From Limosilactobacillus fermentum (GTDB lineage: Bacteria; Bacillota; Bacilli; Lactobacillales; Lactobacillaceae): a stretch of 64,000 nucleotides of DNA. Position numbers and translations under genes: made by a program. Numbering within the stretch: the first letter of the stretch is position 1; each line of letters starts with the position of its first letter. The notes under the pieces were generated by a model. The model was not told the DNA's origin. It saw nothing but the letters and a program-made list of their open reading frames with translations, and ran no database searches. Positions 15,352 through 19,455 of the stretch are shown in pieces. The stretch is from the NCBI RefSeq assembly GCF_013394085.1, contig NZ_CP040910.1, forward strand, positions 1,036,903 through 1,100,902. The letters run 5' to 3'.

Positions 15352-15429
15352 CAAGGAAAAATGTTTTTCCTGACCTTTTCCGTATAAAAACCGCCGGTGG
15401 TGCTCTTGCACCGCTGGCGGTTTTTTTTT
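15352..15429. terminator. Terminators between convergent genes
   Basis: AAAAACCGCCGGTGG ... CACCGCTGGCGGTTTTTTTT (15386-15429) is a bidirectional terminator. A second hairpin, AAGGAAAAATG / TTTTTCCTGACCTTTT (15352-15378), lies on the side of the palindrome copy. Confidence 0.85.
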
Positions 15430-16570
15430 ATGACAGTTGGTCCAGGGCTTGCTGTAAGTCTGCCACGAGGTCTTCTTCGTCTTCGATCCCAACCGACAAG
15501 CGGATTAATTCGTCCTTAATCCCGTTTTGCAGGCGGACCTCACGCGGAATGGAACCGTGGGTCATCACCGCCGGCACTTCAATCAGGCTCTCGATCCCAC
15601 CGAGGCTTTCGGCCAGCGTGATCACCTGCAGGCTTTCGACAAACTTCTTTGCCGAGAGCCCCGCTTGCAGTTCAAAGGACACCATGGCGCCGAAGTGGTC
15701 CATTTGCTTAGCCGCGATATCATGTCCCGGGAAATCTGGCAGCCCCGGGTACAGTACCCGAGCAACCCGCGGGTCCTTTTCCAACAGTTCAATGACGGCG
15801 GCGGTGTTTTCATGGTGGATCCGCATTCGGGCGCCGAGGGTCTTAATCCCCCGCATCAGAAGCCAGGAGTCATCGGGCCCAAGGACGGCGCCAATTGAGT
15901 TTTGGATGAAGGCCAACTGTTCGGCAATTTCCTCGTCGTTCGTAACGGCAATCCCCCCCACCACGTCGGAGTGACCGCCCAGGTACTTGGTGGCGGAGTG
16001 AACTACAATGTCGGCGCCTAGGGTCAGCGGGCGTTGGTTATACGGCGTGGCAAAGGTGTTATCAATGACTGTCTTTAAGCCATGCTTCTTGGCGATCTTA
16101 GCAATCGCTTCGATATCTGAAACCTCCAAGAGCGGGTTGGTGGGTGTTTCAAAGTAAATGGCCACCGTGTTGTCCTGCACGGCCGCTTCGACCGCCGCTA
16201 GGTCCTGGGTGTCGACAACCGTAAATTCGAGGCCGAAACGCTTCAGGACCTTGTTGATCAAACGGAAGGTCCCCCCGTAGACGTCCTTACCAACGATGAA
16301 GTGATCGCCGGAGGAGTAGAGGGAAAAGACGGCGTGGATGGCAGCCGATCCCGAGGCAAAGGCGAAGCCAGCGCCCCCTTCTTCTAGTTGGGCCATTAAG
16401 AGTTCCAAGGAGGCACGGGTCGGGTTGCCGGTCCGGGCATATTCCCACTTGGTGCCACCGCCGAGGACGTGTTGACGGAAGGTTGAGGAGCGGTAAATTG
16501 GGGTCGAAACCGCCCCGGTGGTTGGGTCTTCGCTAATGCCGCCGTGAATTAATTGGGTATTAAACTTCAT
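15428..16570 (-). CDS. Cystathionine gamma-lyase/synthase (Cys/Met PLP enzyme)
   Basis: 380 residues of the Cys/Met metabolism PLP family. YARTGNPTR, FASGSAAIHAVF (cofactor phosphate), the Asp of IDNTFATPYNQRP and the PLP lysine in HSATKYLGGHSDVVGG are all in place, and the active-site SLGGIESL is typical of the gamma-lyase/gamma-synthase branch. Next to a cystathionine-beta-synthase-like gene it most likely cleaves cystathionine to cysteine (reverse transsulfuration). RBS AAAGGAG; 12 bases after the upstream gene, so cotranscribed behind the cysteine attenuator. Confidence 0.88.
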   Translation of the reverse strand: MKFNTQLIHGGISEDPTTGAVSTPIYRSSTFRQHVLGGGTKWEYARTGNPTRASLELLMAQLEEGGAGFAFASGSAAIHAVFSLYSSGDHFIVGKDVYGGTFRLINKVLKRFGLEFTVVDTQDLAAVEAAVQDNTVAIYFETPTNPLLEVSDIEAIAKIAKKHGLKTVIDNTFATPYNQRPLTLGADIVVHSATKYLGGHSDVVGGIAVTNDEEIAEQLAFIQNSIGAVLGPDDSWLLMRGIKTLGARMRIHHENTAAVIELLEKDPRVARVLYPGLPDFPGHDIAAKQMDHFGAMVSFELQAGLSAKKFVESLQVITLAESLGGIESLIEVPAVMTHGSIPREVRLQNGIKDELIRLSVGIEDEEDLVADLQQALDQLS

Positions 16571-16582
16571 AATGTTTCTCCT

Positions 16583-17494
16583 TTATTCGTAAATGTTTTC
16601 GCTTAAGTAACGTTCGCTAGAGTCGGGGAAAATGGTGACGATATTGGCGCCGGCGGGTAGTTTTTCGGCGACCTTCAAACTGGCGGCCAGGGCCGAACCA
16701 GAGGAAGAGCCGATCAAAAGCCCCAGCTCCCTAGCCGCCCGTTTAACCCAGCCAAAGGCATCGTCATCGGTAATCGTTTGGACCTCGTCGATCTTTAAAC
16801 CGCTAAAGAAGGGTGGCACCTGTTCAACCCCAATCCCCTCGGTACGGTGGTCGCCCTTGGGTTGGTGATCGAGAATGGATCCCTTGGGCTGAACCGCAAC
16901 CGTGTAAGCGTTCGGGTAGACGTTTAAGAGCGCCTTAGCGGTTCCGGCAAAGGTGCCCCCGGTGCCGGCCCCGGCCACAAAGGCGTCGATTGGTTGCCCG
17001 TTTAAGTCACTGATAATTTCCGGGCCCAGCGTCCGTTCGTAGGCCCGTGGGTTATCGAAGTTAGCGAACTGGTTAGGCACGTAGGAATCGGCAATGCTGG
17101 CGGCCAGCTCCAAGGCCTTTGCGGTGGCCCCGGTCATTCCGCCCTCGTCCGGCGTGTTAATTACCTCCGCGCCGAGCGCCTTCATCAGTGTCTGCTTTTC
17201 AAAGCTAAAGTGCTCCGGAACCACCAGAATTGTCTTGAGGCGGTGCTTAGCGGCAGCCAGGGCGACCCCGATCCCGGTGTTACCGGCGGTCGGTTCAATA
17301 ATCGTGGTCGTGTTCGTGATCGCCCCGCGGGAAATCCCGTCTTCAATCAGGGCGATCCCCAGGCGGTCTTTGATCGAGCCCCCCGGGTTATACATTTCTA
17401 ACTTGGCAAAGACGTGGCTGCCGTTGGGGACGTCAAGCGGCAACTCCAAGAGCGGGGTGTGGCCGATTAATTGGTAAACATTGTGAACTAGCAT
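16583..17494 (-). CDS. Cysteine synthase / cystathionine beta-synthase family enzyme
   Basis: 303 residues, fold-type II PLP enzyme. The cofactor lysine is in GGSIKDR, the substrate loop is [10 protein letters not shown], the phosphate loop [10 protein letters not shown] and the late Ser is in GSSSGSAL. It lacks the C-terminal CBS domains of eukaryotic enzymes, as usual for the bacterial MccA/OAS-type enzymes. The [10 protein letters not shown] variant and the neighbouring gamma-lyase favour cystathionine beta-synthase (homocysteine plus serine derivative) over plain cysteine synthase. First gene after a leader peptide with three consecutive Cys codons. Confidence 0.88.
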
Positions 17495-17524: not shown

Positions 17525-17557
17525 AAAAAAGGCGCCGATTCAAGCTGAATCAGCGCC
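17525..17557 (-). terminator. Attenuator terminator of the cysteine operon
   Basis: Minus strand GGCGCTGATTCA-GCT-TGAATCGGCGCC followed by six T, ending 31 bases before the first structural gene. One wobble in a 12-bp stem. It lies after the Cys leader peptide and before the enzyme gene, the position of an attenuator. Confidence 0.88.
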
Positions 17558-17581
17558 AATTACACTTACTCCGGATTAAGC

Positions 17582-17674
17582 TTATCCCCGTTTGAGGGAA
17601 CACCAAAGAGTGGAGCCGCGTAATTGACGCGCTCCACAACAACATACGGCTTGCTTAGTAAATACGTTAGTCAT
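17582..17674 (-). CDS. Cysteine leader peptide, 30 residues
   Basis: Starts at ATG 17674 behind AAAGGAGGG and reads MTNVFTKQAVCCCGARQLRG before ending about ten residues later, with a fourth Cys near the end. Codons 11-13 are TGT TGT TGT. Right after them comes a hairpin GTGGAGCGCG/CGCGGCTCCAC. The ribosome-site region GAGGGAACACCAA is an exact reverse complement of 17594-17606 inside the leader. A ribosome pausing at Cys codons would open these stems. The architecture is that of a translation-coupled attenuator for cysteine; not a T-box and not a SAM riboswitch. Confidence 0.8.
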   Translation of the reverse strand: MTNVFTKQAVCCCGARQLRGSTLWCSLKRG

Positions 17675-17686
17675 TGGTGTTCCCTC
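17594..17686. repeat. 13-bp inverted repeat enclosing the cysteine leader ORF
   Basis: GAGGGAACACCAA at 17594-17606 and its exact reverse complement at 17674-17686. In the RNA it pairs the leader ribosome site with the end of the leader ORF. Confidence 0.9.
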
Positions 17687-17702
17687 CTTTCAAAGTGCTT
17701 TA

Positions 17703-17731
17703 ACTATAACCGGTTACTTTTTGTATGTCAA
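17703..17731 (-). promoter_or_regulatory. Promoter of the cysteine operon
   Basis: Minus strand -35 TTGACA, 17-bp spacer, -10 TATAGT. Transcription would begin near 17696, giving a leader of about 200 nt before the first enzyme gene. Confidence 0.85.
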
Positions 17732-17803: not shown

Positions 17804-17835
17804 TAGAGCAAATTATAACCATTGAGGTGATCTTC

Positions 17836-18102
17836 ATGAAAGCAATTGTTACTACCGTTGGTCAAGACCAAGTCGGCATCATCGCCGGGGTCAGCCACTA
17901 CCTTTCCACCGCCCAGATTAATATCCTCGACGTTTCGCAAACGATCATGAGCGGCTACTTTACCATGATGATGATGGTTGAAGTCCCGGCTGACCAGGAC
18001 TTCACTAAGCTAGCCGCCGACTTAAAGGACCTGGGCACCCAGCTTGGCGTGGAGATTAACATCCGCAACGAACGGCTCTACCAAGCCATGCACCAACTTT
18101 AG
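17836..18102 (+). CDS. ACT-domain protein (UPF0237 family)
   Basis: 88 residues forming one ACT domain: KAIVTTVGQDQVGIIAGVSHYLSTA... with the conserved GQD-xxGIIAGVS ligand turn and the central MMMMVEVP strand. ACT domains bind amino acids. It is almost always paired with the DUF711 gene that follows nine bases later. Start at ATG 17836 with TTGAGGTGA upstream; 17827 is too early. Function of the pair is not established; a metabolite-sensing role is inferred. Confidence 0.85.
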   Translation: MKAIVTTVGQDQVGIIAGVSHYLSTAQINILDVSQTIMSGYFTMMMMVEVPADQDFTKLAADLKDLGTQLGVEINIRNERLYQAMHQL

Positions 18103-18111
18103 GAGGGCGCC

Positions 18112-19455
18112 ATGGAAATCGAAAAGATCCAAGAAACGATTCGGATGATCGCCGACGAAAACCTCGACGTCCGAACAATCACGATGGGGATTTCCCTGCT
18201 CGATTGTATCGATAGCGACAGCGACCGGGCCTGCCAAAAGATCTACGACAAGATCACGACTAAGGCCCAGGACCTGGTTAAAGTCGGGCGCCAGATTGAA
18301 GCCGAATTTGGCCTGCCAATCGTTAACAAGCGGGTCACCGTTACCCCAATCGCTTTAATTGCCGCCGCCAGTGGTGACGCCGATTACGTTAAGTACGCTA
18401 AGACCCTCGACCGGGCCGCGCACACCGTGGGGATCGACTTTATCGGCGGTTTCTCGGCCCTCACCCAAAAGGGCTACCAGAGCGGCGATCGCGTTTTAAT
18501 TAGCTCCCTTCCCCAAGCCCTGGCCGAAACCGAGTTGGTCTGCGCCTCGGTCAACGTTGGTTCCACCCGCAGCGGAATTAACATGGACGCCGTCAAGGAC
18601 ATGGGAACGGTGATCAAAAGGGCCAGTGAGTTGGACCTGATGGCCAACGCCAAACTGGTGGTCTTTTGTAACGCCGTCGAGGATAACCCCTTTATGGCCG
18701 GGGGCTTCCACGGGGTCAGCGAACCAGACGTCGTCATCAACGCCGGGGTTTCCGGTCCCGGGGTCGTTAAGGCGGCCTTGGAAAAGGTCAAGGGGCAACC
18801 CATGGACGTGGTCGCCGAAACGATCAAGCAAACCGCCTTTAAGGTCACCCGGATGGGACAGCTAGTCGGCACGATTGCGGCCCAACGCCTAGGGGTTCCC
18901 TTCGGCATCGTGGACCTCTCGCTGGCCCCAACGCCGGCGATTGGCGACTCGGTGGCCCAGATCCTAGAGGAAATTGGCTTGGAACAAGTCGGCACCCACG
19001 GGACCACCGCTGCCTTAGCCATGCTCAACGACGCCGTTAAAAAGGGCGGGATCATGGCCTGCAGCCACGTCGGCGGTTTGTCGGGAGCCTTCATTCCGGT
19101 CTCAGAGGACGCCGGGATGATTGACGCGGTCAACGCCCACACCTTAAGCCTCGATAAGCTCGAAGCAATGACGGCGGTCTGCTCGGTGGGCCTGGACATG
19201 ATCGCCATCCCGGGGGACACCCCAGCCGAAACGATCAGCGCCATGATTGCCGATGAGGCCGCCATCGGGATGATTAACAACAAGACGACCGCCGTGCGGG
19301 TCATCCCGGTCGCCGGCAAGCAGGTTGGCGAGACGGTCGAGTTCGGTGGTTTACTGGGCCACGCCCCAATTATGGGCGTCAATAAGGCCTCGTCTGCCGC
19401 CATGATTCACCGTGGTGGCCAACTCCCCGCCCCCGTCCACAGCTTTAAAAACTAA
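18112..19455 (+). CDS. DUF711/UPF0210 (PFL-like) family protein
   Basis: 447 residues, the normal family length, with the recognisable [13 protein letters not shown] start, [37 protein letters not shown] and [15 protein letters not shown] blocks. It is structurally related to glycyl-radical enzymes but shows no glycyl-radical motif at its end; there is no activating enzyme nearby. Cotranscribed with the ACT-domain gene (AGGAGG ribosome site, nine-base gap). Cytosolic, function unknown. Confidence 0.88.

Follow-up and report, generated by a model that had tools for sequence, protein, structure and literature searches.

The leader upstream of the cbs–cgl operon of Limosilactobacillus fermentum is best explained, on comparative sequence grounds, as a ribosome-mediated transcription attenuator that would read charged Cys-tRNA, and we hold this explanation to be very probable. 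It lies on the minus strand of the window, the 64,000-nt stretch of DNA that was analyzed, in a genome that consists of a single contig of 1.888 Mb. An earlier note on this DNA had already claimed a cysteine leader-peptide attenuator, which our analysis supports as the best reading of the locus, but the note had overlooked the antiterminator. The pairing between the loop of hairpin P1 and the 5′ arm of the terminator is, as read here, the part that defines the attenuator.

Organization of the leader region

The earlier note had listed a promoter with TTGACA and TATAGT 17 bp apart, a strong ribosome site, a 30-residue leader with TGT TGT TGT at codons 11–13, an exact 13-bp inverted repeat linking the leader ribosome site to the leader end, a second hairpin after the Cys codons and an intrinsic terminator before the first enzyme gene. 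All of these were found on the minus strand (Table 1).

Table 1. Features of the cbs–cgl leader region (window coordinates).
Feature	Position	Strand	Description	Basis
Promoter, sigma-70-type	17703..17731	-	TTGACA 17731-17726, 17-nt spacer, TATAGT 17708-17703	11/12 consensus match
Leader ORF	17582..17674	-	30 codons, MTNVFTKQAVCCCGARQLRGSTLWCSLKRG, ATG 17674 to TAA 17582	Homologous leaders in relatives
Putative sensor codons	17636..17644	-	TGT TGT TGT, codons 11-13	Sequence; uORF scan free of selection by Cys
P0, 5′ strand	17674..17686	-	GAGGGAACACCAA, leader ribosome site through A of start codon	P0 permutation test
P0, 3′ strand	17594..17606	-	TTGGTGTTCCCTC, close to leader ORF end	P0 permutation test
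P1 hairpin (regions 1:2)	17610..17637	-	Begins inside third Cys codon	Folding; covariation in 20 relatives
Region 2	17618..17630	-	GCGTCAATTACGC, loop plus 3′ arm of P1; antiterminator 5′ strand	Complementarity, covariation, folding
Region 3	17553..17565	-	GTGTAATTGGCGC, antiterminator 3′ strand; overlaps terminator 5′ arm	Complementarity, covariation, folding
Intrinsic terminator P2 (regions 3:4)	17525..17557	-	GGCGCTGATTCAGCTTGAATCGGCGCC (17557-17531), then T6, last T 17525	Folding; terminators in relatives
First regulated gene (cbs)	16583..17494	-	PLP enzyme, cystathionine beta-synthase / cysteine synthase family	Protein models
Second gene (cgl)	15428..16570	-	Cystathionine gamma-lyase / gamma-synthase family	Protein models

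The promoter by itself is not beyond chance (1 found versus 0.7 expected in a 501-base scan); its position is fitting, and its hexamers are identical in L. gorillae, whose Cbs shares 81% identity with that of the window. A Cbs protein from an L. fermentum record shares 99.7% identity with it. The leader ORF carries consecutive cognate codons and, with the ribosome site AAAGGAGG ahead of its ATG, is predicted to be translatable. Cysteine makes up 0.7% of codons in window ORFs of at least 250 codons, so that three consecutive Cys residues within 30 would be expected about 1e-5 times. The leader transcript folds at -72 kcal/mol, compared with -47.3 ± 3.9 kcal/mol in 200 shuffles (z -6.4). The terminator stands between the leader and the first gene, with about 30 nt from its last T to the ATG at 17494. 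The best models for the first gene were cysK and cysKM, with cystathionine beta-synthase also matched, all scoring under curated cut-offs; the same was true of all 25 models listed for the second gene. On the plus strand (17827-19455), genes for an ACT-domain protein and a PRK05313-family protein diverge from the cbs promoter region.

Proposed mechanism

We infer stalling, the switch, readthrough and the role of P0 as follows. Transcription would start from the promoter, and a ribosome would begin the 30-codon leader behind RNA polymerase. With ample Cys-tRNA the ribosome would clear the three Cys codons; P1, joined by P0 after the ribosome has left, would re-form and hold region 2, the terminator would form and transcription would stop. 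With scarce Cys-tRNA the ribosome would stall on the Cys codons and cover the 5′ arm of P1, leaving free region 2, which begins 14 nt past the first Cys base. Free region 2 would then pair with region 3, no terminator would form and cbs–cgl would be transcribed. Given the footprint length of a ribosome, the modeled geometry fits: a ribosome at the Cys codons would block P1 and leave region 2 accessible. If the leader were not translated, P0 and P1 together should hold the switch off, and P0 should restrict leader translation to the pioneer ribosome.

Conservation of the leader and its cysteine codons

The earlier note had called for a check of orthologous loci. In these the ORF and its Cys codons are retained, and so are the stems, which show compensatory changes. 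We read the sequence upstream of genes for Cbs homologues at 48 loci, namely the window, 28 of 80 named loci and 19 same-genus loci (L. gorillae is in both sets). A tandem-Cys leader was seen at 40 of them at first reading. The eight others comprised four Bacillales loci (L018, L021, L024 and L025, the last with a false match inside a Bacillus gene that was removed) and L003, L014, L100 and L099. The L003 sequence stops 112 nt upstream of cbs and is unusable; at L014 the leader is present farther upstream, its T-run 553 nt from cbs; at L100 a group II intron lies between attenuator and cbs; and L099 has cbs with no leader in the upstream stretch read. The leader is thus present at 42 of the 43 usable Lactobacillales cbs loci (Bacillales and L003 excluded).

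Spacing to the operon varies. The distant T-run of L014, from Companilactobacillus furfuricola, is due to extra sequence, and in C. zhongbaensis (L005) the distance is 349 nt. At L208 a group II intron directly follows the attenuator T-run, leaving an intact-looking attenuator 1937 nt from cbs.

A scan free of selection by Cys was made of the 450 nt upstream for ATG uORFs of 12–45 aa preceded by a Shine–Dalgarno site. Tandem Cys was found at 21 of 23 named Lactobacillales cbs loci, compared with 0.2 in shuffles, and at 2 of 56 Bacillales and other loci, compared with 0.6. Among 68 distinct leaders, TGT and TGC are exchanged at the first two Cys codons, a variation that suggests selection on the codon; two of the 68 have TGT TTT and entered the set through the P1 covariance model. 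The leaders used for the codon and pairing analyses were chosen by tandem Cys, so Cys-conservation counts within them are circular; the uORF scan and the count of 42 of 43 are not. All 40 leaders examined have a terminator, 78–107 nt past the first Cys base. Two leaders before a lyase gene (L164 and L166) have TGT TTT TGT where the others carry tandem Cys codons.

A ribosome stalled for whatever reason near codons 10–13 would expose region 2, and the attenuator might therefore sense a general slowing of translation, as by an antibiotic or low energy, instead of cysteine specifically. This appears very unlikely: among tandem residues in the Lactobacillales uORFs, Cys far outnumbers all others (21 of 23 loci, with Asn second at 7), the target genes are those of cysteine synthesis and probable uptake, and the L. 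paracasei orthologue responds to cysteine as described in PMC6004538.

A metabolite or tRNA riboswitch (a T-box, a SAM-type element or a novel cysteine aptamer) could also govern the terminator, the ORF being incidental. The genome is rich in T-boxes (32 matches, six over the cut-off), and PMC6004538 describes one Cys T-box in L. paracasei. However, no Rfam family matched at the gathering cut-off, either at the locus or in six relatives, and the two sub-threshold matches were both to unrelated sRNA families. At the locus itself, neither the T-box covariance model nor the SAM riboswitch models of Rfam gave a match. An incidental ORF also fits poorly with tandem Cys in an open frame, with TGT/TGC exchange, at nearly every Lactobacillales locus, and with leader peptides of other families that differ outside the Cys run. 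We therefore judge a riboswitch to be extremely improbable and retain ribosome-mediated attenuation as the preferred explanation.

Covariation of the antiterminator

In the window, regions 2 and 3 are complementary over 13 bp with two G-U pairs, and in relatives both sides change together, as in GCGTCTTATGC:GTATAAGACGC, GTGTCAATTGC:GTAATTGACAC and GCACTTTATGC:GTGTAGGGTGC. For the comparison, 77 of 82 leaders were resolved (L098, L156, L158, L188 and L191 were skipped), and an 11-nt region 2 was placed by its distance from the first Cys base, 14 nt, or 17 nt in leaders with an extra codon, the split being decided by eye from the P1 register. Its best complement was the terminator 5′ arm, ending 4–9 nt past the start of that arm, in 62 of 69 distinct leaders. 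At least 9 of 11 pairs form in 60 of the 69, and taken leader by leader, 46 of the 69 matches beat 95% of their own shuffles.

The covariation count used 50 of 54 distinct pairs, L002, L169, L181 and L186 being omitted for an uncertain region 2 anchor. In these 50 leaders, 88.5% of cells are paired and 84 are double-changed, compared with 29.0 in shuffles (0/500), and double changes occur at 10 of the 11 pairs. Sliding the partner by 1–3 columns lowers pairing to 35–56%. Regions 2 and 3 also fit each other better within a leader than across species (-21.4 versus -14.3 kcal/mol in 38 leaders, 0/2000 permutations). For the covariation count, region 3 was placed at the best of 11 offsets, a choice that favors pairing; when the offset was re-optimized in each permutation as a control, the result was again 0/5000 in 35 thinned leaders, a set that partially corrects for the relatedness that the shuffle controls ignore. 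The antiterminator is predicted to be exclusive with the terminator, and it covaries, except in Enterococcaceae, whose leaders gave no convincing antiterminator by an 11-mer scan. It is weak in Tetragenococcus (L020, L023 and L026), and the self-pairing energy ranks poorly in an L. reuteri-like group (L087, L091 and L097). In L091, L093 and L095 of that kind, the usual terminator is swapped for other sequence with its own terminator, and the region 3 core ATAAGGCG is kept.

A different antiterminator, pairing AAGCTTAATC after the leader stop with GATTCAGCTT in the terminator, looked plausible by eye in the window alone. It was rejected because the P1-loop pairing is longer and conserved.

The leader might instead code for a small Cys-rich protein that has a function and a terminator of its own, cbs–cgl being expressed by constitutive readthrough. 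In Enterococcus faecalis the counterpart bears a hypothetical-protein annotation, and a motif like CCCxxxRLxR recurs in Lactobacillaceae leaders. The recurring Arg and Leu codons, however, fall on region 2, and region 2 covaries with the terminator; the peptides differ between families save for the Cys run; and a small protein gives the antiterminator covariation no role. Such a protein is thus a most improbable account of the locus compared with attenuation.

P1 and P0 helices

In 20 leaders, 82.9% of P1 cells are paired compared with 73.4% in shuffles (0/500), and 26 cells are double-changed compared with 7.1 (0/500). Of five measures of P1 covariation, three exceed shuffles; the other two, the number of pairs showing a double change (5 versus 4.0) and that of further pair types (14 versus 15.8), do not.

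The 13-bp inverted repeat was dropped as the main switch in favor of reading it as P0, a helix that would mask the ribosome site of the leader itself. In enteric bacteria, the ribosome site of the trp leader is sequestered in similar fashion. Across 35 leaders, P0-like pairing links the segment that follows P1 to the ribosome site or to the first codons, and the two strands fit each other better within a leader than across species (-16.6 versus -11.2 kcal/mol, 0/5000 permutations). In 20 leaders the self-pairing ranked fifth or better out of 35; L007, L085, L086, L096 and L170 have a weak P0 or none. P0 is present in many relatives and not in all.

Folding predictions

Folding tests were performed on 37 and 36 of the 77 resolved leaders, picked as distinct. 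With polymerase in the terminator loop, the predicted fold of the window leader was the 2:3 helix when the ribosome was stalled (-36.1) and P0 plus P1 when it was ribosome-free (-55.4). Over 37 leaders paused in this way, the 2:3 measure averaged 1.03 stalled and 0.60 free, and it was clearly raised in 21; in nearly all of the remainder, 2:3 pairing is predicted to form even without a ribosome.

At full-transcript equilibrium, the terminator basal pairs averaged 0.99 free and 0.86 stalled in 36 leaders. A drop of more than 0.2 upon stalling was predicted in nine of these, the window going from 0.99 to 0.71. Because the terminator persists at equilibrium in most leaders, a kinetic switch must be assumed; and since the terminator is usually more stable, the antiterminator would have to form before the terminator 3′ arm is made. 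Such an order of events is accepted for classical attenuators.

Distribution and target genes

Amino-acid gene regulation in lactobacilli has mostly been described through T-boxes and riboswitches, and leader-peptide switches are thought rare in lactic acid bacteria. The earlier note accordingly regarded a Cys-codon attenuator as unusual for this group. That view does not hold, as the leader occurs at nearly all usable Lactobacillales cbs loci, at 29 of 30 more loci order-wide and ahead of other sulfur genes.

A first covariance model (R1) had a poor structure of seven pairs and was not used. A second model built on P1 (R2) matched 84 of 396 family genomes and 12 of 40 genera, at 94 places, and 16 of 395 genomes in an order-wide draw that partly overlaps the family set. 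These counts are lower bounds, since the filters were strict and R2 misses the leaders of the window and of L. gorillae, probably because of their longer P1.

Forty of the 94 places were read; they were chosen for second copies and genus variety, so their proportions are not representative. Twenty-four precede cbs, nine a cystathionine lyase gene followed by ABC-transporter-sized genes, three the lyase gene alone, one ABC genes directly, two a MetA-like gene with cysK, and one an OppA-like binding protein gene. Thus 39 of the 40 stand ahead of cbs, cystathionine lyase, the MetA-like/cysK pair or ABC genes of the lyase-adjacent kind. Pfam was run for L153, L182, L171, L165 and L169, and the other target genes were called by similarity, ORF size and gene order. 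A metA-annotated L. paracasei gene is a serine acetyltransferase according to work cited in PMC6004538, and a gene of this function would be in keeping with the MetA-like/cysK pair. Around the three ABC permease loci searched in the L. fermentum genome, no second Cys leader was seen.

Several of these places have features of their own. At L160 the leader has TGA straight after the third Cys codon, followed by an intact lyase gene (81% identical) and ABC-transporter-sized genes. At L161 (774-1248) the lyase gene behind the attenuator is broken, with pieces in different frames, and the ABC-transporter-sized genes downstream are open. The leader at L169 (about 577-650), which starts with GTG and has four Cys codons, lies ahead of the OppA-like protein gene, possibly one for cysteine-peptide uptake.

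A search with the E. faecalis Cbs matched 101 of 295 order genomes at 1e-70. Among the best 30 of these loci, 29 have a Cys-rich leader, a count made with no shuffle control, and all 29 have a terminator. The 30 loci span four families (f2, f3, f7 and f9, of which f3 includes Tetragenococcus and Enterococcus), and the peptides are unlike those of Lactobacillaceae save for the Cys run. A clear antiterminator, equaled by no more than 5 of 100 shuffles, was seen in nine of the 29 leaders, all in f2 and f7. The E. faecalis leader (L121, 3274-3411) is annotated as hypothetical protein WP_002355203.1, and a re-reading of leaders so annotated is suggested. Plasmid records with a Cbs match number 37, of which Lacticaseibacillus accounts for 32; the leader was examined in the FAM18149 and E. 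faecalis records.

Relation to expression data from L. paracasei

In L. paracasei FAM18149, the operon cysK2-ctl1-cysE2 differed by log2 2.9–3.2 between methionine- and cysteine-deficient media, being about 8-fold higher in the cysteine-deficient medium (PMC6004538). The same source reports high 5′-UTR read coverage, a terminator-like palindrome and no T-box upstream of this operon, and describes the mechanism as "yet to be discovered"; it proposes antisense RNA as an additional regulatory element and notes, for T-boxes, that the use of RNase III could enrich structured RNA. A second study describes the operon as massively up-regulated without cysteine and calls the cluster highly mobile in its title (PMC6200037). 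Upstream of the operon on plasmid pFAM18149.25, we found the leader MMSQSMFNAINCCCRTTRFWRCSAC, P1, the terminator-like palindrome and a region 2:3 match of 10/11.

The attenuator may offer an answer, testable base by base, to the question left in 2018 on this methionine-to-cysteine operon (PMC6004538), which may bear on cheese sulfur flavor. The same reading would cover a large part of the order and a number of sulfur operons, and the leader could act as a cysteine marker in annotating transporters.

Chances seem evenly balanced that the attenuator goes back to the ancestor of Lactobacillales and controls a cysteine regulon, that P0 in many leaders limits reporting to the pioneer ribosome and keeps the switch off when translation fails otherwise, and that the module travels with mobile cysK-ctl-cysE clusters. 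On that reading, the regulon would comprise cbs-cgl-cysE, cgl with ABC uptake genes, a MetA-like serine acetyltransferase gene with cysK, and an oppA-like gene.

Comparison with known systems

The trp, his and other amino-acid attenuators of Proteobacteria are the classical systems of this kind. They likewise have a leader ORF with tandem cognate codons and mutually exclusive attenuator, antiterminator and terminator hairpins. The present family differs in that cysteine would be sensed, in its order, Lactobacillales, in its targets, transsulfuration and transport, and in the putative P0 helix that many leaders carry over their own ribosome site. His attenuators have been reported in Firmicutes (PMC2965389; PMC9413887), including the Bacillus cereus group, Eubacteriales and Erysipelotrichales (PMC9413887), and the uORF motifs listed in the main text of PMC11109978 include none with cysteine. 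Among the open-access papers searched, no description of a Cys leader-peptide attenuator in Lactobacillales was recognized.

Liu et al. (2012), as quoted in PMC6004538, reported a palindromic motif before the cystathionine synthase/lyase genes of lactobacilli as a potential regulatory motif. This palindrome, of which a similar one lies upstream of the FAM18149 operon, corresponds to the terminator of the attenuator; leader ORF, Cys codons and antiterminator are unmentioned in the quoted description. Cys runs in a leader ORF have also been described for cys operons of Mycobacterium and Propionibacterium and for cbs of Bifidobacterium longum (PMC1262725). According to that paper, the Cys codons of those leaders are close to the stop codon and a conserved terminator hairpin was not detected, whereas the Lactobacillales family has an intrinsic terminator and a predicted antiterminator. 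The uORFC-8-2 element of Rhodobacterales is similar in its stems, its intrinsic terminator and a uORF in which two Cys codons stand in tandem, but by its description it belongs to Alphaproteobacteria and stands upstream of cysS only (PMC8632094). The kind of mechanism proposed here is already known; the family, its breadth and its regulon appear to be new.
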